Source of the DNA: Porticoccaceae bacterium
GTDB lineage: Bacteria > Pseudomonadota > Gammaproteobacteria > Pseudomonadales > Porticoccaceae
Assembly (NCBI GenBank): GCA_018654575.1
Contig: JABILI010000039.1
Coordinates: forward strand, 1 to 41,260
Reading direction: 5' to 3'
Length of the DNA stretch: 41,260 nucleotides
The position numbers and the translations under genes are program-made. The notes below the pieces were generated by a model. The model was not told where the DNA came from. It made no database searches and was given only the letters and a program-made list of their open reading frames with translations. Within the stretch, counting starts at the first letter, position 1. Each line of letters opens with the position of its first letter. Of this stretch, positions 694-18,300 are shown one piece after another.

Positions 694-725
694 TGTGCAC
701 CTTTAATATTGCTAATTTAATTCGC

Positions 726-2958: not shown

Positions 2959-3009
2959 TCAACGTCTCCATTGTACGATTTCAGCCTAGCTATCCCCGAG
3001 TTGAGATTA

Positions 3010-3037
3010 ATCTTAGCAGAGGCTCGTCGTGGGTCAA
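3010..3037 (-). promoter_or_regulatory. Candidate sigma-70 promoter for the SnoaL-ABM-Rieske-ThuA group
   Basis: On the minus strand TTGACC (3037-3032) and TAAGAT (3015-3010) are separated by 16 bases, about 50 bases upstream of the SnoaL start at 2958. The -35 lies inside the inverted repeat GTCAA-N8-TTGAC (3034-3050). Called by consensus only. Confidence 0.35.
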
Positions 3038-3042
3038 TTTCT

Positions 3043-3112
3043 TGTTTGACTGTGTCTACTTATATTACTTTGGCACCTATAGTCAGTCAATAAAAACCGT
3101 CAAACATGTTTG
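3043..3112. promoter_or_regulatory. Operator-like palindrome CAAACATGTTTG and inverted TGTTTGAC/GTCAAACA pair
   Basis: In the divergent region between the SnoaL gene (minus) and the MDR gene (plus), a perfect 12-base palindrome CAAACATGTTTG lies at 3101-3112. TGTTTGAC at 3043-3050 is the inverse of GTCAAACA at 3099-3106. The half-site CATGTTTGT recurs, inverted, in the E1alpha promoter region (17794-17802), which suggests a shared regulator. No regulator gene is visible in the window. Confidence 0.35.
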
Positions 3113-3179
3113 TTATTTACCTAAGTAAGTAGCTGATGTACCATTGTTACTTAAGGCGACAGTTTTTGGAATTATCTAC

Positions 3180-3198
3180 TGTCATCACGAACATGACA
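3180..3198. promoter_or_regulatory. Inverted repeat TGTCAT-N7-ATGACA upstream of the MDR gene
   Basis: Six-base arms (3180-3185 and 3193-3198) around a seven-base centre end 19 bases before the ATG at 3218. The position fits a repressor site or a hairpin near the ribosome-binding region. It has no T-run, so it is not a terminator. Chance is not excluded. Confidence 0.25.
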
Positions 3199-3217
3199 AT
3201 ATTTATGGAATAAGCTT

Positions 3218-4234: not shown

Positions 4235-4264
4235 TTACCAGAGAGAAATTTCTTTCGATACGCC

Positions 4265-4295
4265 AAAACCTTTCTCACTGAGTGCGGAAGGTTTT
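4265..4295 (+). terminator. Rho-independent terminator-like hairpin after MDR copy 1
   Basis: AAAACCTT and AAGGTTTT form an 8-base stem, with an inner CACT-G-AGTG stem, followed by TTTTCTTGT. It lies 30 bases after the stop at 4234 and separates this gene from the esterase gene. Confidence 0.6.
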
Positions 4296-4427
4296 CTTGT
4301 AATGGGCAAGGACTTGTTGTTGGATCTTTTTGTGGGAAAAACTTATTTTCGTACGTATAAGGACCGAGGTAATTAGGTTAACAATAAATATTCAAATCAA
4401 CGAAGTCTAGAGATAGGGGTTAAAACG

Positions 4428-5357
4428 ATGCCATTAGAACCCGCGACTGCCGCTATTTTGGCCGCAATGGCCGAATCTGGGGCCCCAGAGTACCATGAAT
4501 TACCGGTGGCTGAGAGTCGAGCTATTTATACAGAATCACAGTCGGTACCTCCGACGGTCGCCGTTCATTCTGTTGAAGATATACTGGTGGATGGGCCCGC
4601 AGGGAGTATTCCTGTGCGTATCTATAGGCCTCATGCTATGCCAGCGCCGATGCATGTGCATTTCCATGGTGGCGGTTGGGTGATCGGGAATCTTATTACC
4701 CATGATGCGGATTGTCGTGAGATTTGTATTGCATCGGGGTGTATCGTAGTGGCAGTCGACTATCGACTAGCGCCAGAGCACCCGTTTCCCGCTGCGCCAG
4801 AAGACTGTTATGCGGTGTCCTGTTGGGCATCTATCTATGGCGTCGATTTTGGAGCGAAAACTGGTCCCATCAGTATTGGTGGTGATTCCGCTGGCGGCAA
4901 TCTGGCTGCCGCTGTTGCGCTGATGGCGCGCGATCGTAAAGGGCCCAATTTTGCACTGCAGTTGTTACTCTATCCAATTACCGAACCTAGTATGAGTAGT
5001 ACTTCTTTCCAAGATAATGCCGAGGGTTATTTGCTAACCAAGGCGATGATGACCTGGTTCTGGGATCATTACTGCCCCGATGTTGAACGACGCAAACATC
5101 CACTAGCTAGCCCATTGATGGAGCTAGACCTTTCTGGCCTGCCACCGGCCCTAGTTATCACGGCTGAATTTGATCCATTACGGGATGAGGGTGAGGCTTA
5201 TGCTGAGCGCATGGCGGCGGCGGGAGTTAAGGTTGAGATGCGTCGTTTTGACGGCCTTACCCACGCGTTTTTTTCACTGGCTGGCTTGCTTGAAGCGGCT
5301 CGCGAGGGCGTAGATCTAGTGGGGAATCGGCTGCGCAGGGCTCATGGACTTAGTTAA
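4428..5357 (+). CDS. Alpha/beta hydrolase, hormone-sensitive-lipase (HSL) type esterase
   Basis: 309 residues, typical for bacterial HSL (family IV) esterases. The oxyanion motif HGGG is at 80-83 (HFHGGGWVIGN). The nucleophile elbow GDSAGG holds Ser154. The acid is probably Asp249 (AEFDPLRDEGEAYA) and the base His279 (GLTHAFF). YRLAPEHPFPAAPED, the conserved substrate-pocket stretch, is also present. It should hydrolyse esters or lactones of short to medium acyl groups, plausibly a lactone or acetyl ester in the pathway encoded around it. An AGGGG ribosome-binding site precedes ATG 4428. No same-strand partner follows: the next material is a decayed minus-strand fragment. Confidence 0.93.
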   Translation: MPLEPATAAILAAMAESGAPEYHELPVAESRAIYTESQSVPPTVAVHSVEDILVDGPAGSIPVRIYRPHAMPAPMHVHFHGGGWVIGNLITHDADCREICIASGCIVVAVDYRLAPEHPFPAAPEDCYAVSCWASIYGVDFGAKTGPISIGGDSAGGNLAAAVALMARDRKGPNFALQLLLYPITEPSMSSTSFQDNAEGYLLTKAMMTWFWDHYCPDVERRKHPLASPLMELDLSGLPPALVITAEFDPLRDEGEAYAERMAAAGVKVEMRRFDGLTHAFFSLAGLLEAAREGVDLVGNRLRRAHGLS

Positions 5358-5389
5358 CTTGAGGACTGCTGTGCTTTTGATTGAGGCGC

Positions 5390-5533
5390 CTATTCGCTCG
5401 CTCTCAATCCTCTTCCGAGCAATGACTTTATTGTCCACTGCCCATTGATCCGCTTAAAGTTGAGGTGATACTGAGCATTGAACTGGCTACCCCTCAGATG
5501 GCAGAGCCTACCATAGTGGAACAGACTTATACT
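5390..5533 (-). pseudogene. 3' remnant of an NTF2/SnoaL-like gene
   Basis: Between in-frame stops the minus strand reads 47 residues, including HLRGSQFNAQYHLNFKR, then INGQWTIKSLLGRGLRASE, then stop. The alternation of YHLNFKRINGQWTIKSL is the usual closing beta strands of SnoaL/DUF4440-type NTF2-fold proteins (Y.l.l.r.dGqWkI). There is no start codon with a ribosome-binding site, and the N-terminal two thirds are missing. It directly follows the ABM gene at 5541-5885 on the same strand, so it may be a lost third member of that operon. Assignment is by eye. Confidence 0.45.
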
Positions 5534-5540
5534 TTAGCGT

Positions 5541-5885
5541 TTATCTCATAAAGAAATCAGCACGAGCCGTTCCCGTATCGTCATAAACTGGCTCGGAATG
5601 GTCAACGCTGTACTTGATGATATCAGTGTCCAGAATTTCGTAGTTATAGAGTATCGCCAGCATATCGGTGTAAAAGTGGCTGGCAAGATGAGCGCGTAGA
5701 TGCTCCACAGATTCCCAATTTTCATGTACATAAATCCTTCCCGGGACTGCGGGATCAATACTCCAGACATAGTGACGGCAGCCTTTTTGGAGGCGTGTTT
5801 CCGCCATCAGCTGCGCGGTTTCTGGTAGTACTTTTATAGCATCTTCAGGATTGAAGTTTACGGTTCCATTAATTAGTACAGTCAT
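5541..5885 (-). CDS. ABM-family small protein, second copy
   Basis: 114 residues. The fold signature is VLINGTVNFNPEDAIKVLPE, then QKGCRHYVWSIDPAVPGRI, then VHENWESVEHLRAHLASHFY (E-X-W-X-S-X4-L-X-A-H). It matches the ABM domain more cleanly than the copy at 1927-2241. A cofactor-independent monooxygenase or an isomerase-like role is possible. It lies 23 bases after the SnoaL-like gene at 5909-6322, almost certainly in the same transcript. Confidence 0.82.
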   Translation of the reverse strand: MTVLINGTVNFNPEDAIKVLPETAQLMAETRLQKGCRHYVWSIDPAVPGRIYVHENWESVEHLRAHLASHFYTDMLAILYNYEILDTDIIKYSVDHSEPVYDDTGTARADFFMR

Positions 5886-5908
5886 TATAGTTCCTTTAGT
5901 GACATGGC

Positions 5909-6322
5909 TTATTCACCATACATGGTGTTAAAAATACGCTCTTTGAAAAACCATTGGCCATCAATTTTGACCAATTGATCGTCATACTGACCTCTAGGTC
6001 GAATTTCCTCACCCTCTAGAGTAGTGCCGACTTCTGATGTATAGGATCTAGCGGTGGCGGTGTCGCCACTGACTTGAATGTTGCCAACGGAAATGGACAT
6101 AAAAATAAAGGGAAACATGGACATGCCGCCCTGCCAGGCTGTAACAATATTCTCTTTGCCACTAATATCTTCCATACCCGGTATGACCGGAAGCTTCCAA
6201 TTGGAACCTTCAGACCATGTGGAGGCCCAGAGTTCAGTATCTCGCTGGTTTACAGCATCAGCGTAGATGTCCATAAGTTCGCGGATGGCAAGACGGTCTT
6301 CAGTTGATCCTGAAAAAGGCAT
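5909..6322 (-). CDS. SnoaL-like (NTF2-fold) protein, second copy
   Basis: 137 residues: EDRLAIRELMDIYADAVNQR, ELWASTWSEGSNW, a central GKENIVTAWQGGM, MSISVGNIQVSGDTATARSY and the closing strand GQWFFKERIF. Same SnoaL_4-type domain and layout as the 146-residue protein at 2518-2958. It is the first gene of a two-gene unit with the ABM gene. A promoter with the shared element ATGTATAGTT lies 37 bases upstream, giving it a regulatory link with the E1alpha operon and the ferredoxin gene. Confidence 0.88.
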   Translation of the reverse strand: MPFSGSTEDRLAIRELMDIYADAVNQRDTELWASTWSEGSNWKLPVIPGMEDISGKENIVTAWQGGMSMFPFIFMSISVGNIQVSGDTATARSYTSEVGTTLEGEEIRPRGQYDDQLVKIDGQWFFKERIFNTMYGE

Positions 6323-6358
6323 AATAATCCCCTTGATAGTATTATTGAACGTGTGAAC

Positions 6359-6389
6359 AACTATACATGACAGGGGTTCAGAAAAACAA
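6359..6389 (-). promoter_or_regulatory. Promoter of SnoaL copy 2, shared element ATGTATAGTT
   Basis: On the minus strand TTGTTT (6389-6384) and TATAGT (6365-6360) are 18 bases apart. The ten-base block ATGTATAGTT (6368-6359) is identical to blocks upstream of E1alpha (17778-17769) and of the 2Fe-2S ferredoxin (18474-18465). Confidence 0.5.
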
Positions 6390-6395
6390 TCTCAG

Positions 6396-6424
6396 TTGAT
6401 TTTTTATTGTTAAAAGGGTACCTT
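6396..6424 (+). promoter_or_regulatory. Weak candidate promoter for MDR copy 2
   Basis: TTGATT (6396-6401) and TACCTT (6419-6424) are 17 bases apart, 74 bases before ATG 6498. The -10 match is poor, so this may need an activator or be wrong. Confidence 0.22.
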
Positions 6425-6497
6425 AAATCTCACATTTTGGCCTTCGATGAGATGCATCGTAGTTCCGCAACTAATTACAATGAAAACGGGAAAAACT

Positions 6498-7508
6498 ATG
6501 TTAATTCAGTATAAGCAATACTACCTCCACCAGCGCCCAAAAGGGCCTACCACCGATAGCGACGTTAAGGTTAGAACTGTTGAGGTTTATAGCTTAGCCG
6601 AGGGACAGTTACTGATTAAAAATGAGTATTTCTCTCTAGACCCTGCTATTCGCGGCTGGATGGACGATGTGCCAAGTTACATGCCGCCTATAGTGCTTGG
6701 CGATGTAATTCGTAGTTCAACGGTAGGTACTGTAGTTGATAGTAAGCATCCTGATTTTTCCGCTGGGGATATGGTTTATGGCCTCAATGGTTGGGAAGAG
6801 TATAGTCTGTCCGACGGCTACTTTCTAACTAAGGTGCCTCAAGATAATCAATTCCCTCTGCATTACTATTTAAGTGTATTTGGTGCTGTTGGTCTTACCG
6901 CCTACTTTGGTATTCATGATACCGCTGAGCTAAAGGCGGGAGATACCTTGCTTATGAGCGCTGCCGCCGGCGCAGTTGGTTCATTGGGAGGGCAGCTGGC
7001 AAAGAATATGGGTTGTCATGTGGTGGGTATGGCCGGCACCGATGATAAATGCCAGTGGCTAATGGATGATCTGGGCTTTGATGCGGTAATTAATTACAAA
7101 ACTGAGTCGGGTAACCTTAGTGCTGCGATTGCCGCGGCCTGCCCGGATGGGGTTGATGTCTACTTTGACAATGTGGGTGGTGAGATTCTAGACGCTGCGT
7201 TACTGAATATTAACAGCAATGCGCGCATCGTGTTTTGTGGATCTATCTCTACTTATAATGCCTCAGAGCCAGTTCCTGGTCCCTATAACTGGTGGCAGGT
7301 GCTAGCAAAAAGTGCTGTAGTAAAAGGCTTTTTGGTCAGCAACTACTTTGAGCAGTTTGAGACTGGTGCGGGCGCTCTCGCTCAGTTGCTCACCGAAGAT
7401 AAGATTCAGTTTAAGTACGAAATTGTTGATGGTTTTGATAATACGCTGACTGCCTTCCATAAACTCTTTGACGGCAGTAACACTGGTAAGTTAATGCTTA
7501 AGGTGTAG
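6498..7508 (+). CDS. NADP-dependent MDR-family oxidoreductase, copy 2
   Basis: From ATG 6498 the protein has 336 residues, exactly the length of copy 3. The upstream in-frame starts at 6447 and 6480 would add 17 or 6 residues with no family counterpart. KNEYFSLDPAIRGWMDD is the N-terminal signature; SAAAGAVGSLGGQLAK and VDVYFDNVGGEILDAAL mark the NADP-binding domain. No zinc ligands. It probably reduces an enone or enal intermediate. The SDR gene starts 4 bases after the stop, so the two form a tight reductase/dehydrogenase operon divergent from the SnoaL/ABM pair. Confidence 0.92.
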   Translation: MLIQYKQYYLHQRPKGPTTDSDVKVRTVEVYSLAEGQLLIKNEYFSLDPAIRGWMDDVPSYMPPIVLGDVIRSSTVGTVVDSKHPDFSAGDMVYGLNGWEEYSLSDGYFLTKVPQDNQFPLHYYLSVFGAVGLTAYFGIHDTAELKAGDTLLMSAAAGAVGSLGGQLAKNMGCHVVGMAGTDDKCQWLMDDLGFDAVINYKTESGNLSAAIAAACPDGVDVYFDNVGGEILDAALLNINSNARIVFCGSISTYNASEPVPGPYNWWQVLAKSAVVKGFLVSNYFEQFETGAGALAQLLTEDKIQFKYEIVDGFDNTLTAFHKLFDGSNTGKLMLKV

Positions 7509-7512
7509 ACCT

Positions 7513-8280
7513 ATGTCACAGAAAAGGCTATCGGGTAAGCGAGCCATTGTTACTGGAGGCGCTACTGGTATCGGTTATGGTATTGCTAAGCGATTTATTG
7601 CCGAAGGTGCGAGGGTTATTATCACCGACATAGATAATCCTGGAGGTATTGCTGCCGCAGAGGTTCTAGGTCTAAATTGTGAGTTCGTGCACCATGATGT
7701 GTCAGTGCCAGCGGATTGGGATCGAGTCTTCGCAGTTGCTGCGGACAGGTTTTTCGGCCTAGACATCATGGTTAACGTTGCCGGTGTTACATTGATGGGG
7801 AATATCGAGCAACTTGACGTAGATACCTGGGATAAAACTATGGCGATCAACGTACGGAGCTGCTTTTTAGGCTGCCAGGGTGCGATCAAGGCAATGAAAA
7901 GTGACGGCGGAGGTTCAATTATAAATATGGCCTCGGTTTCTGCCTTCAGACCCCAAGCCGAGCTTGTTGCTTATAATGCCTCCAAGGCTGGTGTCGATAT
8001 GATGACCAAGTCCGTGGCCTTGCACTGCGCCCGCAGTGGCTATGGCATCAATGTTAACTCAATCAATCCGGGCGTTATTCAGACCCAGATGTTAGAAAAG
8101 GTGATCAGTCAGGTGGACAATGGTGAAGCCCTGATGGATAGCTACAAGGCCATGCATCCGATTGGCCGTATCGGCGAGCCAGAAGATGTTGCGTCCATGG
8201 CAGTTTATTTGGCTAGCGAGGAGGCTTCATTTGTAACTGGCTCAGGGTTTACTGTTGATGGCTCTCTCAGTAACAACTAA
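7513..8280 (+). CDS. Short-chain dehydrogenase/reductase (SDR), classical type
   Basis: 255 residues. The cofactor motif TGGATGIG is at 14-21 and Asp39-Ile40-Asp41 after the second strand favours NAD over NADP. NVAG is at 88-91. The catalytic set is Asn113, Ser141, Tyr154 and Lys158 (YNASK). PGVIQTQM and the C-terminal VTGSGFTVDGS are typical of 3-oxoacyl-ACP-reductase-like or hydroxysteroid-dehydrogenase-like SDRs. It would oxidise a secondary alcohol (or reduce a ketone) formed in the pathway. AAGGTG inside the 3' end of the MDR gene serves as its ribosome-binding site, so translation is probably coupled. Confidence 0.93.
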   Translation: MSQKRLSGKRAIVTGGATGIGYGIAKRFIAEGARVIITDIDNPGGIAAAEVLGLNCEFVHHDVSVPADWDRVFAVAADRFFGLDIMVNVAGVTLMGNIEQLDVDTWDKTMAINVRSCFLGCQGAIKAMKSDGGGSIINMASVSAFRPQAELVAYNASKAGVDMMTKSVALHCARSGYGINVNSINPGVIQTQMLEKVISQVDNGEALMDSYKAMHPIGRIGEPEDVASMAVYLASEEASFVTGSGFTVDGSLSNN

Positions 8281-8310
8281 GAGGCACAACTATATTTACA
8301 GGAGAGGATA

Positions 8311-8385: not shown

Positions 8386-8425
8386 TCGGCAGGACCAGAC
8401 CAATAGTGACAGGCCCAAGTTAGAG

Positions 8426-9436
8426 TTAGTCTATTTTAACCAGAGCTTTCCCTACTGTGTTGCCGGACATCAAATCGCAAAATGCCTTAGGAGTATTAAC
8501 AAAGCCCTCTGTAATGTTTTCGATCACGTTAATCTCTCCTGCTCGGATCCACTCCTCAAGTTTCGCCATAGCTGCGGGTACCTTTTTCTGATAGGAGGGC
8601 AAAAGAAATCCCTGCATGGTCAGTTGCCGCGAGACCATTTCCCAAAGATTGGTAATTGGATTTGGATTATCTGTGCGATTATAGTCAGAAATCATCCCGC
8701 AACCGATAATACGCCCATAAACTTTCATAGCGGGGAGCATCGCATTCAGAATTGGACCACCGACATTATCAAAATAAATATCCGCACCTTCTGATGCAAT
8801 GGCCATGACGGACTTGGTAACATCATCATTTTTGTAGTTAATCGCGGCATCAAAACCAAATTTATCCACAATCAGCTTCGCTTTTTTATCACTGCCAACA
8901 ATACCTATGACTGTGCAGCCACAGAGCTTAGCTATTTGTCCGGCCATACTACCGGTAGCACCTGCCGCCGCACTGACGACGACCGTTTGCCCTGCTTGAA
9001 TCTGGCCTACTTCATGTAAGCCGATATATGCAGTGGCCCCAGCACCGCCAAGAGAGCCGACATAGTATGAGATGGGTATTCCAGTCTCTGGCTTCAGCTT
9101 TTCGAGCAATATGGCTTCGCTATGGCAAATGGAATAATCTTCCCAATGATTGAGGGCATATACAAGATCACCCTCAACAAAATCTTGATTGCAGGACTTA
9201 ACCACTTGCCCTACAGAAGGCCCTCGAATCACTCCACCGATTGGGATTGGTTCGAAATAGTTGGCCTTGCCATCCACCCAACCTCGAATCGCAGGCTCCA
9301 TGGACAAATACATATTGCGCAACAAAAACTCACCCTCTCCAGGCTCTGGAATCGCACTCTCGGACATGGCGAAATTTTCTGGCTTGGCGGCATCACTCAC
9401 ATAAGAGGCGAGAACAACTTGACGATTCATTTTCAT
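8426..9436 (-). CDS. NADP-dependent MDR-family oxidoreductase, copy 3
   Basis: 336 residues: RNMYLSMEPAIRGWVD, SAAAGATGSMAGQIAK and ADIYFDNVGGPILNAML give the zinc-free CurA/alkenal-reductase family. Over the NADP domain it is visibly closer to copy 2 than to copy 1. It is the last gene of the long minus-strand operon; its start lies 2 bases after the Rieske ferredoxin stop. This suggests that reduction of a double bond or aldehyde belongs to the same pathway as the Rieske oxygenation. Start at Met1 or Met3 (ATGAAAATG). Confidence 0.92.
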   Translation of the reverse strand: MKMNRQVVLASYVSDAAKPENFAMSESAIPEPGEGEFLLRNMYLSMEPAIRGWVDGKANYFEPIPIGGVIRGPSVGQVVKSCNQDFVEGDLVYALNHWEDYSICHSEAILLEKLKPETGIPISYYVGSLGGAGATAYIGLHEVGQIQAGQTVVVSAAAGATGSMAGQIAKLCGCTVIGIVGSDKKAKLIVDKFGFDAAINYKNDDVTKSVMAIASEGADIYFDNVGGPILNAMLPAMKVYGRIIGCGMISDYNRTDNPNPITNLWEMVSRQLTMQGFLLPSYQKKVPAAMAKLEEWIRAGEINVIENITEGFVNTPKAFCDLMSGNTVGKALVKID

Positions 9437-9438
9437 GA

Positions 9439-9756
9439 TTAATCCAGATCAATATGCAGGTTGCCATCATCGGACACGCTAATGTCATAGGTTTTCAGTG
9501 GTACTTTTGTTAGTTCTCCCATGGGCTTTCCAGTACGTAAGTCAAATCGCACGCCATGCAGTGGACAGGACAGAAAACAGTTTCTGATGCGACCCTCAGT
9601 CAGCTTTGCCCTCTGGTGGGTACATTGATTATCGACCGCATAATATTCACTGTTAGCTTTACAGATAAGAATATCTTTCCCATCTAGAGCGATAGCCACA
9701 GATTGGTTGTCAGTGATATTTGCTGCGGGGATCAGCGTGTCTATTATAGTGACCAT
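9439..9756 (-). CDS. Rieske-type 2Fe-2S ferredoxin
   Basis: 105 residues with Cys45-X-His47 and Cys64-X2-His67 (CTHQ ... CPLHG), followed by FDLRTGKP, the usual Rieske ferredoxin loop. It is small and single-domain, so it is an electron carrier rather than an oxygenase. It lies between the oxygenase alpha gene at 9831-11213 and an MDR reductase, and most likely passes electrons to that oxygenase, and possibly to the second one at 726-1898. No ferredoxin reductase gene is present in the window. Confidence 0.93.
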   Translation of the reverse strand: MVTIIDTLIPAANITDNQSVAIALDGKDILICKANSEYYAVDNQCTHQRAKLTEGRIRNCFLSCPLHGVRFDLRTGKPMGELTKVPLKTYDISVSDDGNLHIDLD

Positions 9757-9830
9757 AGAAATCTCATAACGGGAGAGTAGGTAACAAGCTTGCCGGGCTA
9801 AGAAAATCTAAAACCCGGCGATACAAAGTC

Positions 9831-11213
9831 TTAGGCCTTGAGATACTTGTCTATTGTTTGGTGCAGATGACGAATCCGACTTTCCTGATAACTTGCCAGA
9901 CTTACCGCCCCCTTCCTTGATGCAATCATGCCTTTTTGTACTGCTGCCATATTGCTATCATCCTGATCGAATACGGGGCCTAGGGCGCCAATTTCTGGGG
10001 CTTCGCTAAAGGCTTGATCTGGGCGCAGAGTATTTTTCATCGCTGGCTCTGGACGCTTTGTACCCTTTGGGTAGCGCATCAGAATCATGGTTTCGAAGAT
10101 ACAGCTGCTGTGATCATCACCATTAGGTAGGAAGCGATAGACAATATTGCCATGGTAACCAATCCATACCTGAGTATTGGGGAACAGCATATAGAGTATC
10201 GCGTCTTCCAGTTCGGACTGGGTTGCATCATCCAGAGGCTGACCAATAATGTCGCCAAACATCTCACGGTTGGTCTCTGCCACATAGCTCCGCGCGGTAA
10301 CGCCCTTGGGCACTTCATGGCCCTCAGCGCTATCGGTTGCCATACGGCCCGACAGCACAAGAATATCGAGCATGGTCTCTTCAGCTGTTACATCAGGCCT
10401 ATGGGGGCTTGCCACACCCATAGGAGTAACTGAACGACTCACATGATCTCCAAAGGTGTCGTACTGGGAGTTAGCATCACCGGTGAAGGTGAGAATCTCA
10501 CTATGAGTTTCCAACGTGTGAAATGACTCCATAAAGGCCTCGGCACCGACTTTCCAGTTGCACTGAACCACACGCTCAACATGAGCGCCTTTGTAATAGT
10601 CATGCAGAGGGAAGCGCGCGAAGTGCTCTGGTAGGGGACTTAAGTAGTCTTCCAGAGGAACGCAGTTCTCATCGAAATTAATAAAGATAAAACCGCCCCA
10701 GATACCGACTTTGACCTGAGGTAGGCTCATATCTTTCTGGTCTAAATGGCTAAAGTCCCACTTACAAGGTATAGCTTTAAACTCGCCCTTAATACTCCAT
10801 GTCGCGCCATGAAATGGACAGACAAACTCTTCGGCATGGCCATCGCAGTCGCGCAGTATACGGCCCCGATGCAAACAGGAGTTAATAAAAGCTTTAATTT
10901 CATTTTCACCGGTGCGGGTAACAATAATCGATTGGTCTACGATTTCGTAAACATGATGGTCGCCGATTTCAGGAATGTCTTCTTCTCGACAGGTCATTTG
11001 CCAGACCTTGGGCCATAGCTTCTTCTTTTCTTGCTCATGAAAATCACGATCAACCCAGCGCGCCACATCTAAATCGTCATCACCCATAAAGGGATTGGTA
11101 TTTTCCCGCAGGTATGCCGGCACTTCGATAGTCTCGTCGTTGAGAAGATCCTGGTAGCTCAGGCCTTCGCAGCGAGCTTCACCCTGTTGTTTTACTTTAA
11201 TTAGTTCAGACAT
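9831..11213 (-). CDS. Rieske non-heme iron oxygenase, alpha subunit (long form)
   Basis: 460 residues. The Rieske cluster ligands are Cys113-X-His115 and Cys132-X2-His135 (CLHR ... CPFHG). Iron ligands are Glu229-X2-His232-X4-His237 (FMESFHTLETHSE), with the last Asp near 418-419 (DQDDSNM before VQKGM). The Glu at the first facial-triad-region position parallels the other oxygenase here. It is in the operon with the thiolase-fold and 2-oxoacid dehydrogenase genes, 27 bases after the thiolase gene, and upstream of its likely ferredoxin. It should catalyse an O2-dependent hydroxylation or ring attack in the same pathway. No beta subunit follows, suggesting an alpha3-type enzyme or pairing with a SnoaL-like protein. 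Confidence 0.93.
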   Translation of the reverse strand: MSELIKVKQQGEARCEGLSYQDLLNDETIEVPAYLRENTNPFMGDDDLDVARWVDRDFHEQEKKKLWPKVWQMTCREEDIPEIGDHHVYEIVDQSIIVTRTGENEIKAFINSCLHRGRILRDCDGHAEEFVCPFHGATWSIKGEFKAIPCKWDFSHLDQKDMSLPQVKVGIWGGFIFINFDENCVPLEDYLSPLPEHFARFPLHDYYKGAHVERVVQCNWKVGAEAFMESFHTLETHSEILTFTGDANSQYDTFGDHVSRSVTPMGVASPHRPDVTAEETMLDILVLSGRMATDSAEGHEVPKGVTARSYVAETNREMFGDIIGQPLDDATQSELEDAILYMLFPNTQVWIGYHGNIVYRFLPNGDDHSSCIFETMILMRYPKGTKRPEPAMKNTLRPDQAFSEAPEIGALGPVFDQDDSNMAAVQKGMIASRKGAVSLASYQESRIRHLHQTIDKYLKA

Positions 11214-11240
11214 AAAAGTTACTCCTGCTCATAATTTTAA

Positions 11241-12383
11241 TTATTTGGTGATAATATTAACGCCGCTGATGCCTGGTGCACCATAGACATGAGTGTAGCC
11301 GACCTTGGGTTGGTTAGGCACTTGCCGTGCGCCACCCTCGCCACGTAACTGCACACAAACTTCATAGACCTGGCGCAGTCCGGATGCCCCAACAGGCTCG
11401 CCATTTGCTAGGCAACCACCATCGGTATTAATAGGCATACGGCCGTTGATTCCAGTGGCCCCCTCGCGTAGTAATTTTTCTTGCTCGCCATGGTCACAGA
11501 AACCATTCTCTGCCATATGCATAATTTCGGTGCCACTATCCGTATCTTGTAGCTGGATCACGTCAATATCTTCGGGGCCTATGCCGGCTACCTCAAACGC
11601 GGCATTGGATGCCGTTACTGTAGGCGCATCGGCTACAGTCATAGCCTGCGACGGGGCGAAGACTTCGAAGCTGCCGTAGTGGCGTGTACGCACCGCGGCA
11701 GCTTTCAGGAATAGAGGATTGGTACTGTACTGATGAGCTTTATCAGCATTGCAAATAATTAGTGCAGCGCCACCTTCAGCGGGACTGCAAAACATATATT
11801 TACGAAGTGGATGGCTAACCATTGCCGAGTTGGCAATCTCTTCATAACTGAACGCTTGCTGACGCCAAGCGGTAGGAGTCAATGAGCCATTGTTAAAGGC
11901 TTTTTCTGACACGCGAATCAAGGCATCTTCGGTAATACCATGGTCATGCATATAGCGTTGTGTTTTAAGGGCAAAAAACTGTGTTGTTAGCATTAATCCG
12001 GTTTCGCCATACCAGTCATCCAGACCCCATTCTTTTGGTTGGGGATTAAATGCGCCTCGGGGATGCTTGTCGAAACCGACGACAACACCCACATCGTACT
12101 CGCCAGATTTAATAGCACTGTAGGCGGCGTGGAGAGAGCTACCACCTGTGGCGCAGCCGTTCCAAATATTGGTGAACTGTAAACCAGTTAGACCAAGCTC
12201 ATTGACGAGTGCATCGGCGTTGCCAGCATCCTGACTACCACCATAGGCAAACTGCATATCCTGCCAGGAAAGGCCGGCATCGGTGAGGGCGGCACGCACA
12301 GCTGAAGCTCCCTGTTGCATACCAGTCATATCGGGTGAACGGCCGAAGCGATGAAGCCCTATACCTATAATTGCTACATCCAT
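11241..12383 (-). CDS. Thiolase-fold protein of the lipid-transfer/SCP-x (Ltp) type, possible retro-aldolase
   Basis: 380 residues. The thiolase nucleophile region is WNGCATGGSSLH with Cys77. The motif that holds the catalytic His in true thiolases (GHP) reads GGCLANGEPVGASG, with Glu329 at that place. The C-terminal C-X-G segment is replaced by GYTHVYGAPG (Tyr363, His365, Tyr367). This composition is typical of Ltp-like proteins that work with a DUF35 partner. In actinobacterial steroid side-chain degradation, Ltp2 with ChsH2-DUF35 is a retro-aldolase releasing a short acyl-CoA. The DUF35 gene is directly upstream (3-base gap). Thiolytic activity is therefore doubtful, and carbon-carbon cleavage by aldol chemistry is the preferred inference. 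Confidence 0.85.
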   Translation of the reverse strand: MDVAIIGIGLHRFGRSPDMTGMQQGASAVRAALTDAGLSWQDMQFAYGGSQDAGNADALVNELGLTGLQFTNIWNGCATGGSSLHAAYSAIKSGEYDVGVVVGFDKHPRGAFNPQPKEWGLDDWYGETGLMLTTQFFALKTQRYMHDHGITEDALIRVSEKAFNNGSLTPTAWRQQAFSYEEIANSAMVSHPLRKYMFCSPAEGGAALIICNADKAHQYSTNPLFLKAAAVRTRHYGSFEVFAPSQAMTVADAPTVTASNAAFEVAGIGPEDIDVIQLQDTDSGTEIMHMAENGFCDHGEQEKLLREGATGINGRMPINTDGGCLANGEPVGASGLRQVYEVCVQLRGEGGARQVPNQPKVGYTHVYGAPGISGVNIITK

Positions 12384-12386
12384 GAT

Positions 12387-12818
12387 CTATGTCTCCATCA
12401 CTGGGCTAAAACTGAATGTCATTTTTTGCTCCCCGTTTTCTTCAGTACGAAATGGGATAATATCTAATTGCATGGGCATGCCAATCTGCAAATCCTCAGG
12501 ACTATTGGCTTGCAGGCGAGCCTCGACTCGCACACCACCAGGCATTTCAACATAGCCTACACCATAGGGACGAAATGTCTCAGCTGTTTCATCGCTGTGG
12601 TAGGGCTGTTTAGGCATAAATGTCTGGATCGTCCAGGTCCATAATGTCCCGCGATCGCCTAATTCAACAATATCTGTATCACGTGAGCCACAGTTGCGGC
12701 AGTCGGGCTGGGCGGGGAAGGAGGCCTCTGAGCATTGGTTGCAGCGACTACCCAACAACTGAGGCTTTCTGGACGGCCAGGTGAACAGACCTTCGTGCAT
12801 TGGAACGTGCTGGCTCAT
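12387..12818 (-). CDS. DUF35/OB-fold, zinc-ribbon acyl-CoA-associated protein
   Basis: 143 residues. The rubredoxin-like zinc ribbon uses Cys26, Cys29, Cys40 and Cys43 (RCNQCS ... DCRNCGS). An OB-fold follows, with GTLWTWTIQTF and FRPYGVGYVEMPGGVRVEARL. DUF35 proteins are obligate partners of thiolase-superfamily enzymes (HMG-CoA synthase/thiolase channelling in archaea, Ltp aldolases in actinobacteria), contributing to CoA binding. It lies between E3 and the thiolase-fold gene with 3 to 9 base gaps, in line with a complex with the latter. Confidence 0.92.
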   Translation of the reverse strand: MSQHVPMHEGLFTWPSRKPQLLGSRCNQCSEASFPAQPDCRNCGSRDTDIVELGDRGTLWTWTIQTFMPKQPYHSDETAETFRPYGVGYVEMPGGVRVEARLQANSPEDLQIGMPMQLDIIPFRTEENGEQKMTFSFSPVMET

Positions 12819-12827
12819 ACATATATC

Positions 12828-14219
12828 CTATTGATGGATAGCAAGACCAAGACTGTCCAAGACAGACTGGTGCATACTTTCGGAAACTGTTGGATGGGCG
12901 TAGATGGTTTGGATTAGTTCGTGCTCTGTAGCTTCGAGCTGTTGAGCAATGCCAAAACCCTGAATTTGTTCAGTGACTTCTGGCCCAATCATGTGGGCGC
13001 CTAAAAGTTCGCCACTGTCGGCGTCAAAAATGGTTTTAACCAAGCCTTGCCCTTCATTGATAGCTAACGCCTTGCCATTAGCACTAAGATTAGATCGCCC
13101 TACTCTGATACTGCGGACCTTATCTTTAGCCTGTGCTTCGGTAAGGCCTACGCTGGCAATTTGTGGGCGGCAATATGTACAGCCTGGCACATGAGCCTTA
13201 TTTAAAGGTTTAACATCGTCAATGCCAGCAATATTTTCTACACAAATAATAGCTTCATGACTGGCTTTATGCGCAAGCCAAGGCGCGCCAGCGACATCGC
13301 CAATAGCGTATAACCCGGCCAGATTGGTCTTGCCAAATTGATCAACAACTAAAAAGCTGTTTTCGGTTTTTACGTCCAGTTTTTCAAGGCCGAGACCTTC
13401 AATGTTGCCCCTGATACCGACGGCGAGGATCACCTGATCAAATTTTATCTGATGCTCTCCATTAGGACCTTTAATGAATGCTCGGGCTTGTGCTCTAGCA
13501 CCTTCAACAGATTCGACCAGAGTGCTTGTCAGCACCTTGATACCTCGTTGCTGGAAGGCCTTTTCTGCAAGAGCTGAAATTTCAGAATCTTCTGACGGAA
13601 TAATGCGCTCAGTAGCTTCGACCAAGGTCACATCAGTGCCGAGATCATTATAGAGACTGGCAAATTCTACTCCTATTGCGCCCCCGCCGATGACCAGAAG
13701 GCTTCCAGGAAGAGACGAGGGGGTCATAGCCTCGCGCGCCCCCCAGATGAGATCACCATCAATTTCGATATTGGGAAGATTCCTCGCGCGAGCGCCAGTA
13801 GCAAGGATAATATGGTTCGACCTGTACTGGGTGACGTCACCTTCATAGCTGACGTCAATACGGCATTTGCCTGCCACAGTTGCGGTCCCATCAATCACAG
13901 CAATATTATTTTTCTGCATCAGGTAAGCGACACCCTGGCTCAATTTATCTGCCACAGAACGACTGTGCTGAACCAATTTATTAATGTCGAAGTTAAGGTT
14001 GTCGATAGTAAAGCCGAAGTGCGCGGCTTCTTTTAAGGTGTGGGCTATATCTGCACCACGCAGCAGAGCCTTGGTCGGTATGCAGCCCCAGTTTAAGCAG
14101 ACTCCACCGAGGTGCTGCTTTTCTACCAATGCCGTTTTAAAGCCTAACTGGGCAGCGCGAATGGCAGCCACATATCCGCCGGGGCCACCACCCACTACCA
14201 TAAGGTCATATTGCTCCAT
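12828..14219 (-). CDS. lpdA: Dihydrolipoyl dehydrogenase (E3)
   Basis: About 463 residues from ATG 14219. A GTG start at 14231 would add four, but the family begins close to MEQYDLMVVGGGPGG, and AGAGG sits 11 bases before the ATG. Numbering from the GTG: FAD motif GGGPGGY at 14-20, redox disulfide Cys45/Cys50 (GGVCLNWGCIPTK), NAD motif GGGAIGVEFA, a second FAD contact YAIGDVAG, and the interface pair His446/Glu451 (HPTVSES). It reoxidises the dihydrolipoyl group of the E2 encoded immediately upstream (E2 stop 3 bases before the GTG). Being in the operon, it is probably dedicated to this complex rather than the housekeeping enzyme. Confidence 0.95.
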   Translation of the reverse strand: MEQYDLMVVGGGPGGYVAAIRAAQLGFKTALVEKQHLGGVCLNWGCIPTKALLRGADIAHTLKEAAHFGFTIDNLNFDINKLVQHSRSVADKLSQGVAYLMQKNNIAVIDGTATVAGKCRIDVSYEGDVTQYRSNHIILATGARARNLPNIEIDGDLIWGAREAMTPSSLPGSLLVIGGGAIGVEFASLYNDLGTDVTLVEATERIIPSEDSEISALAEKAFQQRGIKVLTSTLVESVEGARAQARAFIKGPNGEHQIKFDQVILAVGIRGNIEGLGLEKLDVKTENSFLVVDQFGKTNLAGLYAIGDVAGAPWLAHKASHEAIICVENIAGIDDVKPLNKAHVPGCTYCRPQIASVGLTEAQAKDKVRSIRVGRSNLSANGKALAINEGQGLVKTIFDADSGELLGAHMIGPEVTEQIQGFGIAQQLEATEHELIQTIYAHPTVSESMHQSVLDSLGLAIHQ

Positions 14220-14234
14220 ACTCACCGTCACCTC

Positions 14235-15701
14235 TTATACCAGCATAGTTGCCGGCTGCTCCAAGAAACCCTTAAGAACAGACATAAACTGTGCCGCTAC
14301 AGCGCCATCGATAATACGATGGTCACTGGACAGTGTCAGGCTAATAACGGTTGCAACACTCAGTGCACCATTTTTAACAACAGCCCGCTGTTCCCCGGCA
14401 CCCACGGCTAAAATGGCACCTTGGGGTGGATTAATGATAGCGTCGAACTGCTTAATACCATACATGCCCAGATTGGAGATACAGAAACTCCCCCCTTGAA
14501 ATTCCTCAGGGTTTAGGCGATTGAGCTTGGCTCTTGTAGATAGGTCACGCATCTCACTGGAAATACTCTCTAAACCCTTTTTGTTGGCCTCAGCGATAAT
14601 AGGTGTAATCAAGCCATCTTTGATGGCAACCGCAACAGAGATATCGGCATCTTCAAAGTAGGTGATTTGCTCGCCATCAAACTGCACGTTGACTGCCGGC
14701 ACTCTTACTAGCGCACTGGCACAGGCTTTAATAATAAAGTCATTTACCGAGACTTTGGTGGCAGTGTTGACATCATTGATCTGCTTGCGTGTGGCAAGCA
14801 GGTTATCTAGCTCGGCATCAATGTGCACACGGTAGTGCGGTGCGGTCTGTTTAGATGCCTGCAGACGAGAAGCAATAGTCTTACGCATGCCGCTAATAGT
14901 CTGAGACTCAGAACTGCCATGTACCGGCGCAGCAACAGTTGATTGCGTCGGCAATCTATTTTTCATTGCGGCCGTAGCCTCAACATCAGCCTTGCACACA
15001 CGCCCACGGTTACCGCTAACACGGCATTCTAGTAGGTTGATACCTAGCTGTTCAGCCAGGCGTCGCGCAACTGGGGTCGCCTTAACTTGGCTATCATCAC
15101 CGCTCTGAGTTTTGCTAGGTATTGAATTATTAGTTCCAATTAATAGGCCACCCGAGGCGGTTACGGCCGCCTCTAGGTCGCCTTTGGATACGCGCCCGTG
15201 GCGACCCGTACCGATAATATTATTGAGATTAACACCATATTCTCCGGCCAAGCGACGGGCTACTGGTGATGCCGGCACGTGGCTATCATCTGCACCTCCA
15301 GCTAGTAGATCTAGATTACTGAGCTGTTTCTCAGCTGGTGCTACAGATTCATTTGCAACTTCGGACATGATCGGCGCCTCTTCTATAACTACTGCTTCGC
15401 TATTACTGGGATAACTACTTATAAACGCTTGAATATCATCTTCGCTGATATCAGCAGAAGCAAGGACACCCAGAAGACCACCGATATTGTGTGTCTCGCC
15501 TGGTTGGGCAAGTATAGCCCTCACAATACCGCTATCTGCAGCGGTGACTGTGTTGACGATTTTCGCGGTCTCAACATCGACCAGATCATCCTCAATGTTG
15601 ACTTGGTCACCTACTTTGACATGCCAGGTATTGATTTCACCTTCAGACATTTCCATGCCCCATTTGGGCATACTGATCGGCTTGATTTTATTGGTCATCA
15701 T
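14235..15701 (-). CDS. Dihydrolipoamide acyltransferase (E2) of a 2-oxoacid dehydrogenase complex, two PSBDs
   Basis: 488 residues. The lipoyl domain is at about 5-80 with lipoyl Lys47 (DVETAKIV). Two peripheral subunit-binding domains follow: one at about 144-179 (SPVARRLAGEYG ... GTGRHGRVSKGDLEAA), another at about 208-243 (TPVARRLAEQLG ... GNRGRVCKADVEA). The C-terminal acyltransferase domain has SSDHRIIDG with His461. Most bacterial E2 proteins carry one such binding domain, so the tandem pair is unusual. The start codon overlaps the E1beta stop (TAATG). The sequence fits the acetoin/branched-chain-like group, with acetyl or another acyl group as cargo. Confidence 0.94.
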   Translation of the reverse strand: MMTNKIKPISMPKWGMEMSEGEINTWHVKVGDQVNIEDDLVDVETAKIVNTVTAADSGIVRAILAQPGETHNIGGLLGVLASADISEDDIQAFISSYPSNSEAVVIEEAPIMSEVANESVAPAEKQLSNLDLLAGGADDSHVPASPVARRLAGEYGVNLNNIIGTGRHGRVSKGDLEAAVTASGGLLIGTNNSIPSKTQSGDDSQVKATPVARRLAEQLGINLLECRVSGNRGRVCKADVEATAAMKNRLPTQSTVAAPVHGSSESQTISGMRKTIASRLQASKQTAPHYRVHIDAELDNLLATRKQINDVNTATKVSVNDFIIKACASALVRVPAVNVQFDGEQITYFEDADISVAVAIKDGLITPIIAEANKKGLESISSEMRDLSTRAKLNRLNPEEFQGGSFCISNLGMYGIKQFDAIINPPQGAILAVGAGEQRAVVKNGALSVATVISLTLSSDHRIIDGAVAAQFMSVLKGFLEQPATMLV

Positions 15702-16747
15702 TAGGCTCCCAGTACGTCCCGAACAGCGGCAAGAACTTTATCGACATTGGGAACGTAAGCATCTTCCAGCTCAGGGGCAAAAGGAACCGGCGTATGTGGT
15801 GCAGTCACGGTACGAATTGGAGCTCTGAGGCTAAAGAAGCCTTTCTCAGCAACGATACCGGCAATGTCAGAGGCTAGGCCGCAGCGAGGATTGCCTTCAT
15901 CGACCACAACCAATCTGCCAGTAACTTCGACACTCTCAAGAATCGCCTCATCATCCAGTGGTGAAACGGTGCGAGGATCAATAACATCGCAGGTGATCCC
16001 CTCTTTCGCCAAAATATCTGCCGCAGCAATGGCATGAGTGACCATGTTAGAGATAGCAACGATAGTGACATCTTTACCTTGGCGAGGGAACGCGGCTTCA
16101 CCAAAAGGTATGGCATACTGCTCGTCTGGCACTTCACACTCATTGTTGTACATGACTTTATGCTCGAGAAAGATCACAGGATCCTCATCGCGAATCGCTT
16201 GCACCATCAAGCCTTTGGCATCGTAGGCATTGCTCGGCATCACTACTTTCAGGCCAGGAATATGGGTAACAACCGAGTGGAGTATACTGGAATGCTGAGC
16301 GCCTGCTCTCCAACCAGCGCCCACTGTTCCTCTAATTACCATTGGAGTTTTGGATTTGCCGCCGAACATATAGCGAAACTTAGCAGCTTGATTAAAGATC
16401 TGGTCGAAGGACACGCCAATAAAGTCAAAGAACATCAGTTCAGCGATTGGGCGGAGACCATTGTTGGCAGCGCCGGCGGCGGCACCAATAATGGCTGCTT
16501 CAGAAATAGGGGTATCGATCACTCTCTCTCGACCGACCTCTGGCATCAGACCTTTAGTTACACCAAAAACACCACCATAGGCATCGTCTTGGCCGTCACA
16601 GCCAGCGCCACCGGAGACTTCTTCACCGAGAACTATAACAGTTGGATCCCGGCGCATCTCTTCACGAATGGCATCATTGAGGGCTTCACGGTAAGCCTTG
16701 ATTGAGGTCTTACCGCCTATTTTTGCATCATTAGAATTAGTAGTCAT
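15701..16747 (-). CDS. 2-oxoacid (acetoin-type) dehydrogenase E1 component, beta subunit
   Basis: About 348 residues from ATG 16747. An in-frame start at 16777 lies inside the E1alpha gene, while AAGGG sits 7 bases before the 16747 ATG, just after the E1alpha stop (16758). Features are the transketolase pyrimidine domain (VIVLGEEVSGGAG, then DTPISEAAIIGAAAGAA), GGKSKTPMVIRG and HSSILHSVV, and the C-terminal transketolase domain with DPRTVSPLDDEAI and VVVDEGNPRCG. This is the AcoB/PdhB family. It pairs with E1alpha to decarboxylate a 2-oxo acid, or cleave a 2-hydroxyketone or diketone, on thiamine diphosphate. Confidence 0.94.
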   Translation of the reverse strand: MTTNSNDAKIGGKTSIKAYREALNDAIREEMRRDPTVIVLGEEVSGGAGCDGQDDAYGGVFGVTKGLMPEVGRERVIDTPISEAAIIGAAAGAANNGLRPIAELMFFDFIGVSFDQIFNQAAKFRYMFGGKSKTPMVIRGTVGAGWRAGAQHSSILHSVVTHIPGLKVVMPSNAYDAKGLMVQAIRDEDPVIFLEHKVMYNNECEVPDEQYAIPFGEAAFPRQGKDVTIVAISNMVTHAIAAADILAKEGITCDVIDPRTVSPLDDEAILESVEVTGRLVVVDEGNPRCGLASDIAGIVAEKGFFSLRAPIRTVTAPHTPVPFAPELEDAYVPNVDKVLAAVRDVLGA

Positions 16748-16757
16748 CTCGGTACCC

Positions 16758-17729
16758 TTAGTATGAACTGTAGACATCGGACAAAAGGTCCGTGGAGGGA
16801 TCTGGGCGCGGGGCAGCTAGACCATCCGCAACAGCTTTTTCTATTTCGGCTACGATTTCCTTATCTATCGCATTCATAGTCGCGGCTTTTAACCAGCCTT
16901 CTTTAATGACTCGAGCGCGGAATATTTTTAAGCAGTCCTCGGTTTTACGGGCATTTTTAACTTCATCTTCGCCGCGGTAAAGCTGTGGGTCACCAATAAA
17001 GTGGCCGTCAAAGCGGACACACTTGGCCTCAATAGAAGTAGGGCCACCGCCATCGCGAGCCCGTTGAGTCGCAACCTTGATGGCGTCATACGTTGCAAAG
17101 AAGTCGTTTCCATCAACGTATTCAGCCGGCATACCGAAGCCGGCGTTTCGGTCTGTCAGGCTGTCGCAGCCAAGACCATAGTTAGCAGCAGTACCTTCAG
17201 CGTAACCGTTGTTTTCATAAATAAATATATGAGGAAGCTGTAAAACAACGGCCATATTCATCGCCTCCATGGTCGTGCCTTGATTGGCGCTTCCATCACC
17301 GTTGAACGACAGAGCGACATTTTTAGTACCCAAGGTCTTAGCTGCCAGGGCAGCACCGTTTACGAGTGGCGGGCCGCCGCCAACAATCGCGTTAGCTCCT
17401 AGCATGCCTTTATCGATATCGGCAATATGCATGGAGCCACCTTTACCTTTGCACAGGCCGGTAGATCGGCCCATGACCTCTTTCATCATTCCACCGACGT
17501 CACAGCCTTTGGCGATACAGTGACCGTGACCGCGGTGAGTGCTACCAATTATGTCACTGTCGCTAAGATCAATACAGGCTGCTACAGCAATAGCCTCTTG
17601 ACCGTTAGATGCATGAACGAAGCCGGGAATATTACCTCCCATGAACTCTTTGATACAGCGTTCTTCGAACTCGCGAATGGTTCTCATCGAGCGGTAGGCC
17701 CTTAGCAGAAAATCCTCTTGGTATGGCAT
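16758..17729 (-). CDS. 2-oxoacid (acetoin-type) dehydrogenase E1 component, alpha subunit
   Basis: 323 residues, as in AcoA-type E1alpha (shorter than PdhA of the E. coli kind, which is fused). Start: MPYQEDFLLRAYRSMRTIRE. The thiamine diphosphate motif is GDGSANQG (Gly144-Asp145-Gly146) to ENNGYA (172-177). GGSMHIAD and the phospho-loop-like GHFIGDPQLYRG are also family marks. The nearest family is acetoin dehydrogenase or a related alpha-diketone cleaving enzyme, but a 2-oxoacid substrate from the neighbouring pathway is equally possible. It is the first gene of a nine-gene operon ending at 8426, and its promoter is at 17770-17797. Confidence 0.94.
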   Translation of the reverse strand: MPYQEDFLLRAYRSMRTIREFEERCIKEFMGGNIPGFVHASNGQEAIAVAACIDLSDSDIIGSTHRGHGHCIAKGCDVGGMMKEVMGRSTGLCKGKGGSMHIADIDKGMLGANAIVGGGPPLVNGAALAAKTLGTKNVALSFNGDGSANQGTTMEAMNMAVVLQLPHIFIYENNGYAEGTAANYGLGCDSLTDRNAGFGMPAEYVDGNDFFATYDAIKVATQRARDGGGPTSIEAKCVRFDGHFIGDPQLYRGEDEVKNARKTEDCLKIFRARVIKEGWLKAATMNAIDKEIVAEIEKAVADGLAAPRPDPSTDLLSDVYSSY

Positions 17730-17768
17730 GGAGATGAACCTTTAGTTAGTTTGATTTTAGGTTGAGTA

Positions 17769-17810: not shown

Positions 17811-17979
17811 AAGGGGAGTTTTGATACTTGAGGTTTGATGGAGGTTTCAGCGCCAAGCAAGAGAAATCAAGCGTGAGATGATGCTACTGATTTTGATAGG
17901 ATGTTTTTTGCAAAACAGACGCTTATCAAAGAGCTTTATATGGTGGATATTAGATTAGAGGGGTATAAGGTTGAGCCTA

Positions 17980-18300
17980 TTAAAACTGTGATGTGGGCAG
18001 GTGTACCGTTAAACCATCGTGGGCATCGGTTATGATGACTTGACAGGACAGGCGACTATTGTCTTTTGGCTCGGTAACGCACTCAAGTAAGTCCTTTTCC
18101 ATCTCGCTAGCGGGATCAATTTTGGCTATCCAGTTGTTTTCGATATAGCAGTGGCAGGTAGCGCAACTGCAAGAACCGCCGCACTCGGCAAGGATTCCTT
18201 CGACCACATTATCGACAGCCGCTTGCATTAGGCTGCTACCGATTTCAGCGTTGACTTCTTGATTATTACCGTCGGCTTGTATGAAGGTGATTGTGGGCAT
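17980..18300 (-). CDS. 2Fe-2S ferredoxin, putidaredoxin/adrenodoxin type
   Basis: 106 residues. Cluster ligands are Cys40-X5-Cys46-X2-Cys49 and Cys86 (ECGGSCSCATC ... RLSCQVI), the adrenodoxin spacing with X36 before the last Cys. An extra Cys44 and Cys51 are present. Such ferredoxins usually feed cytochromes P450, sometimes Rieske oxygenases. No P450 and no ferredoxin reductase gene is in the window, so the partner is either elsewhere or one of the two Rieske oxygenases. It has its own promoter with the shared element, with a leader of about 160 bases. Confidence 0.93.
   Translation of the reverse strand: MPTITFIQADGNNQEVNAEIGSSLMQAAVDNVVEGILAECGGSCSCATCHCYIENNWIAKIDPASEMEKDLLECVTEPKDNSRLSCQVIITDAHDGLTVHLPTSQF

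Follow-up and report, generated by a model that had tools for sequence, protein, structure and literature searches.

Does a run of nine genes that joins a Rieske oxygenase, a thiolase-fold/DUF35 pair and a full E1-E2-E3 dehydrogenase complex serve a single pathway, and if so, which one? This question is raised by the 41,260-nucleotide stretch of Porticoccaceae bacterium DNA analysed here (hereafter, the window; assembly GCA_018654575.1, contig JABILI010000039.1). It corresponds to contig C76 in a 97.55% complete metagenome-assembled genome (MAG) of 2.42 Mb from the SAR92 clade, whose near relatives with names are SAR92 clade/Porticoccaceae records. Our comparison with other genomes gives a good likelihood that these genes form a genuine, conserved group whose functions are coupled, and the set combines known kinds of enzyme in a new way. 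As to its role, we tentatively propose (with a probability of roughly 0.45) a catabolic module in which oxygenation and cleavage of a coenzyme A (CoA) thioester would yield an α-hydroxyketone or α-diketone, to be split by the complex to acyl-CoA. The first-pass annotation had put the set forward as a candidate for an undescribed system, and our literature searches, which were not all so aimed, likewise gave no described pathway with this gene set.

Gene content and spacing

The nine open reading frames (ORFs) were confirmed on the minus strand, each matching the family that had been named for it:

8426..9436 (−), MDR-family reductase (CurA/prostaglandin-reductase-like enone reductase); ORF and family match
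9439..9756 (−), Rieske-type [2Fe-2S] ferredoxin; ORF and family match
9831..11213 (−), Rieske non-heme-iron oxygenase α subunit (RO1); ORF and domain match
11241..12383 (−), thiolase-fold (SCP2/lipid-transfer-like) C–C lyase or acyltransferase, with Cys77, Q279-D280-T281 and G328-E329-P330; family match and alignment
12387..12818 (−), DUF35 protein of 143 residues, ChsH2-type zinc ribbon and OB fold; domain match
12828..14231 (−), E3, dihydrolipoyl dehydrogenase, GTG start; above the NCBIfam cut-off
14235..15701 (−), E2, dihydrolipoyl acyltransferase with one lipoyl, two E3-binding and a catalytic domain; domain match
15701..16777 (−), E1β, thiamine diphosphate (ThDP)-dependent, acetoin/pyruvate dehydrogenase type; family match
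16758..17729 (−), E1α, acetoin-dehydrogenase type, with the STHRGHGHCIAKG stretch; domain match and tree

Counted from the distal end, the spacings are 2, 74, 27, 3, 9, 3, −1 and −20 bases. Thus, the upper end of the range of −1 to about 74 given previously is correct, but the lower end is −20, found between E1β and E1α as called. A second in-frame ATG lies ten codons on in E1β, and with a start there the two genes would no longer overlap but have a spacing of +10. Promoter-like and terminator-like sites from 8200 to 18700 both occur at shuffle level (13 versus 13.8 and 11 versus 9.2, respectively).

Linkage across related genomes

Co-occurrence and conserved order both bear out the functional coupling that had been suggested for these parts. 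In a sample of 94 relatives, own genome included, a thiolase orthologue (at least 590 bits) is found in 19, and an acetoin-type E1α (at least 340 bits) accompanies it in 17 of these 19, versus none of the 75 genomes without the thiolase (Fisher p 8e-17, kinship ignored). Within the genus alone, E1α occurs in 14 of 16 genomes with the thiolase versus 0 of 34 without it. In both misses (G029 and G046), the contig has its start within the set.

Elsewhere in the genus, 12 loci show the full nine-gene order (L034, L036-L038 and L040-L047), and contig ends interrupt another four (L035, L039, L048 and L059). For wider counts we used the best 80 of 394 confirmed places, among which the full nine were present at 12, these being 11 genus places, which overlap the 12 loci just given and are not additional to them, and one in Pseudomaricurvus alcaniphilus. 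The same order in the genus loci and Pseudomaricurvus is more than chance. At 79 of the 80 loci the DUF35 gene lies directly upstream of the thiolase gene, the sole miss (L089) having 62 bases of upstream sequence, and a RO1 homologue (at least 40% identity) lies directly downstream at 63 of the 75 loci with enough sequence. Genes for E1α, E1β and E2 are upstream in 30 of the 56 loci with at least 6.8 kb there; E1α, E1β, E2, DUF35 and RO1 occur together in 29 of the 56, and E3 as well in 21.

A core of E1α-E1β-E2-(E3)-DUF35-thiolase-Rieske is found again in other families, its carriers including Zhongshania, Aestuariicella, Parahaliea aestuarii, Luminiphilus syltensis NOR5-1B, Microbulbifer agarilyticus and Haliea/Halioglobus. 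In many Luminiphilus loci, E1 is located apart from the DUF35-thiolase-Rieske genes. Among the loci seen, an MDR reductase at this place is confined to the genus and Pseudomaricurvus, and the Rieske ferredoxin to these two plus Zhongshania and Aestuariicella; E3 is often missing from the set. In other words, the nine-gene unit described at first holds for the genus and Pseudomaricurvus, but as a fully conserved unit in all carriers it was rejected, the conserved core being smaller.

Other E1 genes add to this picture. Two further E1 lineages adjoin the same DUF35-thiolase type, namely in L109/L111 (Halopseudomonas/Pseudomonas MYb185) and in L123/L130, which argues that the complex functions in the pathway rather than being linked to it by chance. 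In L051 and L129, a separate E1α-E1β-E2 run comes after a RO2-like oxygenase (RO2 being the second Rieske oxygenase of the window) and an acyl-CoA dehydrogenase.

As a separate observation, the set is present twice in genome G028, in near-identical form on separate contigs (L040 and L059, the latter cut at a contig end). Either the set was duplicated or this MAG mixes strains, as may be supposed.

The acetoin-type complex

In a tree of 42 rows, the window E1α and 20 other cluster E1αs form one clade with support of 97/90. A larger clade of 30 rows (100/99) adds four acetoin-type plasmid sets (Acinetobacter, Klebsiella, Caballeronia and Agrobacterium) and the sphingomonad and separate gammaproteobacterial E1αs, while the PdhA and BkdA references (one each) fall outside on long branches. 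The stretch STHRGHGH is common to the window E1α and the acetoin-type sets, occurs also in L123/L130, and is absent from PdhA and BkdA. Moreover, the Klebsiella and Acinetobacter sets have the same E1α-E1β-E2-E3 order as the window, with respective identities of 61% and 56% for E1α, 56% and 59% for E1β, 45% and 47% for E2, and 56% and 55% for E3. The acetoin-type assignment made earlier therefore stands, given this clade and identities of 45-61% to the reference sets. Of these sets, that of Acinetobacter is followed by genes annotated as acetoin reductase and 2,3-butanediol dehydrogenase, and those of Caballeronia and Agrobacterium have an E2 annotated as an acetoin dehydrogenase subunit. Among the closest described counterparts is the acetoin dehydrogenase complex (AcoABC-Lpd), with which the window complex has in common the E1α clade, the gene order and two E3-binding domains in E2. 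Unlike the acetoin sets, the window complex is followed by DUF35, thiolase-fold and Rieske genes. From its sequence, the complex is best called acetoin-dehydrogenase-type and not acetoin dehydrogenase, its cleavage of acetoin to a CoA product being only putative.

Two candidate features of the complex were set aside. The tandem pair of E3-binding domains that follows the single lipoyl domain of E2 (14235-15701) is no novelty, as it was also read in the Klebsiella, Acinetobacter and sphingomonad E2 proteins. Identity with the housekeeping pyruvate dehydrogenase was rejected too, in agreement with what had been proposed, since separate sets exist in the same genome: an 887-residue AceE-like ORF followed by a 439-residue E2 on contig C56, and a SucA-, SucB- and Lpd-like run on contig C95 (AceE and the C95 genes named by eye).

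The DUF35/thiolase-fold pair and the oxygenase

The best relatives of the thiolase-fold protein among solved structures are BbsB and SCP2 thiolase. Cys77 occupies the nucleophile place in 80 of 80 loci. More conspicuously, the place that reads HDAF/HDCF in BbsB and SCP2 thiolase is QDTD in 27 and QDTE in 53 of the 80, and the place of their GHP reads GEP in all 80. The benzoylsuccinyl-CoA thiolase BbsAB has a DUF35 partner too, but its BbsB subunit carries HDAF/GHP where the window protein has QDT[DE]/GEP. Ltp2 and Sal are alike in fold and in having a DUF35 partner; they use YDHF and YDCY motifs (PMC12329534). Neither motif occurs here, with QDT[DE] in 80 of 80, and the window DUF35 protein (143 residues) has no hydratase domain. 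With such unusual active-site letters, chemistry cannot be transferred from BbsB, SCP2 thiolase, Ltp2 or Sal. We infer a Cys-dependent C–C cleavage of an acyl-CoA in which Glu329 would replace His, the DUF35 protein being presumably the partner subunit.

In RO1, PF00355 (Rieske) and PF00848 (Ring_hydroxyl_A) were matched above cut-off, and the Cys/His and iron-ligand residues were read by eye only. The Rieske ferredoxin is likely its electron donor. No oxygenase β subunit is present among the nine genes. The same kinds of parts, a Rieske oxygenase, a thiolase-fold protein and a DUF35 protein, are combined in the ibuprofen system IpfABDEF. Unlike Ipf, the window set has distant sequences (22-28%), no β subunit and the complex in place of a CoA ligase. 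Homology with Ipf was rejected in favour of analogy only, the identities being 22% for IpfA and 28% for IpfD over part of their length.

Comparable clusters on plasmids

Parallel sets occur in sphingomonads. On plasmid pNL2 of Novosphingobium aromaticivorans (SARO_RS18605-18680), a RO1 homologue (42% identity) followed by a ThuA-domain gene (59%) lies about 8 kb from a DUF35-thiolase-acyl-CoA dehydrogenase-E1α-E1β-E2-VOC run, with identities of 40% for DUF35, 60% for the thiolase, 31% for the acyl-CoA dehydrogenase, 52% for E1α, 61% for E1β and 39% for E2. The pNL2 thiolase, which was checked for this, has the letters QDTE/GEP. Novosphingobium ES2-1 and Sphingobium TomTYG65 have the same order from DUF35 to E2, and in ES2-1, as in pNL2, the RO1 homologue and then ThuA are on the same plasmid. 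Unlike the window, the sphingomonad clusters place an acyl-CoA dehydrogenase between the thiolase and E1α and have no E3. No characterisation of them turned up in our literature searches.

In Rhodococcus DMU1 and DSM 44186, the thiolase type is present with no E1 in the stretch shown. A plasmid of Rhodococcus sp. ZPP (L170, 6584-17236) brings together E1α-E1β, a RO1 homologue (40%), ThuA and DUF35-thiolase. Its thiolase has HDCF/GHP motifs and is only 29% identical, and the cluster may have come to the same design through an assembly of its own.

Possible function and alternative explanations

In the module that we favour, RO1 and its ferredoxin would place oxygen on a carbon skeleton, and the DUF35/thiolase-fold pair would cut the C–C bond adjoining a CoA thioester. 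An α-hydroxyketone or α-diketone would be among the products, either directly or after oxygenation, and would be split by E1-E2-E3, with ThDP, lipoamide, CoA and NAD+, into acyl-CoA and an aldehyde or acid. We infer one transcript, a catabolic role and thioester substrates. The ketone step and the order of steps are guesses, the latter being unreadable from gene order.

In favour of this module are the E1α clade and the identities to acetoin sets, the co-occurrence with the thiolase, the two further E1 lineages and the sphingomonad plasmid sets, as is an E1α of 352-393 bits elsewhere in 15 of 20 genomes examined from loci without E1 at its place. Several results weigh against it. E1 is missing from its place at 26 of the 56 loci with sufficient upstream sequence, and five of the 20 genomes examined from these 26 loci have no E1α of at least 340 bits (three are without any match at 1e-40 and two have matches at 38-44% identity only). 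The bit-score thresholds themselves were set after viewing the score lists, at score gaps, and 7 of the 75 genomes without the thiolase do contain weaker E1 relatives (206-252 bits). On a quick thiolase tree, from which 12 of the 80 loci were left out (genus copies or near kin, plus L084), the E1-adjacent label requires 10 changes, and the pNL2 thiolase groups with E1-free paralogues from the window genome, not with the window protein. One such paralogous cluster (L052, 3358-18547, contig C1) reads acyl-CoA dehydrogenase-DUF35-thiolase-acyl-CoA dehydrogenase without E1, and also holds a CoA ligase, a RO1-like oxygenase (35%) and SDRs; by this token the DUF35/thiolase pair is able to work without the complex. 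Long branches lead to several references in the E1 tree, and its joining of L123/L130 with Clostridioides difficile is possibly false. Moreover, NCBIfam names both E1α (below cut-off) and E1β (above cut-off) pyruvate dehydrogenase, E1 specificity is not readable from sequence, and acetoin reductase, butanediol dehydrogenase and aldehyde dehydrogenase were not identified beside the set among the annotated window genes. Literature and genome comparisons gave no substrate for the set.

The pyruvate dehydrogenase names are what would be expected of a route through 2-oxo acids, in which ring hydroxylation and cleavage, or transamination, gives a 2-oxo acid that the complex decarboxylates to an acyl-CoA for the acyl-CoA dehydrogenases and the DUF35/thiolase pair. 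VOC-family genes beside E1/E2 in sphingomonads would fit as well, as would the three LigB-type and one HsaC-like extradiol dioxygenases of the own genome, in which no intradiol enzyme was found. However, LigB-type enzymes are present in 5 of the 19 carriers, and 10 of the 19 (7 of these at least 90% complete) have neither a LigB-type nor a HsaC-like match (E 1e-40), no search having been made for cupin-type enzymes, for further type-I extradiol enzymes or, beyond the own genome, for intradiol ones. We regard this route as somewhat unlikely. The seven near-complete carriers without either extradiol type leave room for a C–C cleavage that is not due to a dioxygenase. It is conceivable, if unlikely, that oxygenation primes a ring or chain for opening by the complex itself, which would break a C–C bond of an acyloin or 1,2-diketone within a larger skeleton and pass the CoA thioester straight to a lyase of a new type with QDT[DE]/GEP. 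Ordinary use of acetoin or diacetyl, the oxygenase and thiolase genes lying beside the complex by chance, is the least probable explanation of all. Though E1α, E2 and E3 are near those of acetoin sets, co-occurrence and order are conserved over several families, acetoin reductase and butanediol dehydrogenase were not identified among the annotated neighbours, and the BudC score of the SDR at 7513-8280 is 191 bits against a cut-off of 270.

A steroid, sterol or bile-acid pathway, in which the DUF35/thiolase pair acts as a side-chain retro-aldolase of the Ltp2/Sal kind, would suit the combination of DUF35 with a SCP2-like fold (the Ltp2/Sal architecture, PMC12329534), and PMC4810484 names the OM60 clade among putative steroid degraders. 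On contig C12 of the own genome (L182, 431-13619) there is a gene cluster similar to the 9,10-seco steroid-ring pathway, with HsaF-, HsaE-, HsaD-, HsaA- and HsaC-like genes, a CoA-transferase-like pair, a hydratase and two acyl-CoA dehydrogenases (HsaA, HsaC and HsaD being named on NCBIfam scores below curated cut-offs, and IpdAB-like and HsaG-like by eye), and this SAR92 genome may thus degrade steroids. Yet the YDHF/YDCY motifs are replaced, and a HsaC-like gene (at least 380 bits) occurs in 5 of 19 carriers versus 8 of 75 non-carriers (Fisher p 0.13, kinship ignored), which leaves the steroid-ring pathway unsupported as a partner and the explanation quite improbable. For LigB-type and HsaC-like enzymes (other dioxygenase types being unsearched), neither steroid rings nor classical ring cleavage would seem to explain the set across its carriers. 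An aryl-CoA dioxygenation and deacylation as in ibuprofen degradation, where the oxygenase attacks the ring by the CoA-bound side chain and the DUF35/thiolase pair removes that chain as acyl-CoA, draws on the likeness in part kinds (Rieske α, SCPx-like thiolase and DUF35, from the pIBU218 annotation and PMC9195938). This is very improbable, with IpfD 28% identical over about 236 residues and the cysteine absent, IpfA 22% over 232 residues, and neither a β subunit nor a CoA ligase among the nine genes. Still less probable is a biosynthetic role in the tailoring of a natural product. Such a role could account for the SnoaL and ABM neighbours and for an oxygenase on a Pseudoalteromonas sp. SANK 73390 plasmid to which RO1 is 35% identical over 96%, but the annotated genes on either side showed none of synthase type, a breakdown role agrees well with acyl-CoA dehydrogenases and a complete NAD-linked complex, and the surroundings in sphingomonads and Rhodococcus are rich in acyl-CoA dehydrogenases and look catabolic.

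Coastal seawater commonly harbours SAR92, Luminiphilus and related bacteria, and the targets of their many oxygenases are largely open. A conserved, readily checked gene set linking a Rieske oxygenase, a thiolase-fold lyase and an acetoin-type complex of their own offers a concrete handle on these enzymes, with cultured carriers in HTCC2207, MOLA455, Luminiphilus syltensis and Zhongshania, and the parallel set on the N. aromaticivorans plasmid. If the complex does cleave a ring or long-chain acyloin, this would be a further route, beside dioxygenases and hydrolases, by which skeletons are opened directly to CoA esters.

Flanking genes and further observations

Around the nine genes, the window holds the following:

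1..1898 (−), ThuA-domain protein, truncated at the window edge, and RO2, the second Rieske oxygenase; both likely of the same pathway
2518..8280 (strand not specified), SnoaL-like protein, CurA-like reductases, α/β hydrolase, ABM and SDR; pathway membership suggested by synteny only
17980..18300 (−), 2Fe-2S (Fer2) ferredoxin, 250 bases upstream of E1α; kept beside the set in the genus, membership uncertain
18570-19796 and 19798-20925 (−), two acyl-CoA dehydrogenases, possibly of the same pathway; L037 is the one further genus locus with them beside the set

ThuA and RO2 are likely part of the pathway because a ThuA gene comes after the RO1 homologue in Luminiphilus, Parahaliea aestuarii and the sphingomonad plasmids; the window copy of ThuA (1-693) is cut by the window end. 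The likeness of the acyl-CoA dehydrogenases to pimC/IpdE2 comes with NCBIfam scores below curated cut-offs. Genes from about 21 to 41 kb, named by eye only, are housekeeping-like.

RO1 is also 47% identical to an oxygenase on a plasmid of Nostoc sp. HK-01. Together with the SANK 73390 plasmid, which we take to be the thiomarinol plasmid, this relative extends the oxygenase family beyond breakdown clusters. The own genome has 12 Rieske α subunit matches, or about 11 genes. Lastly, three CurA-like MDR reductases are found within 6.2 kb (3218-4234, 6447-7508 and 8426-9436), and two ABM and two SnoaL genes lie at 1927-6322, both groups being kept in the genus.

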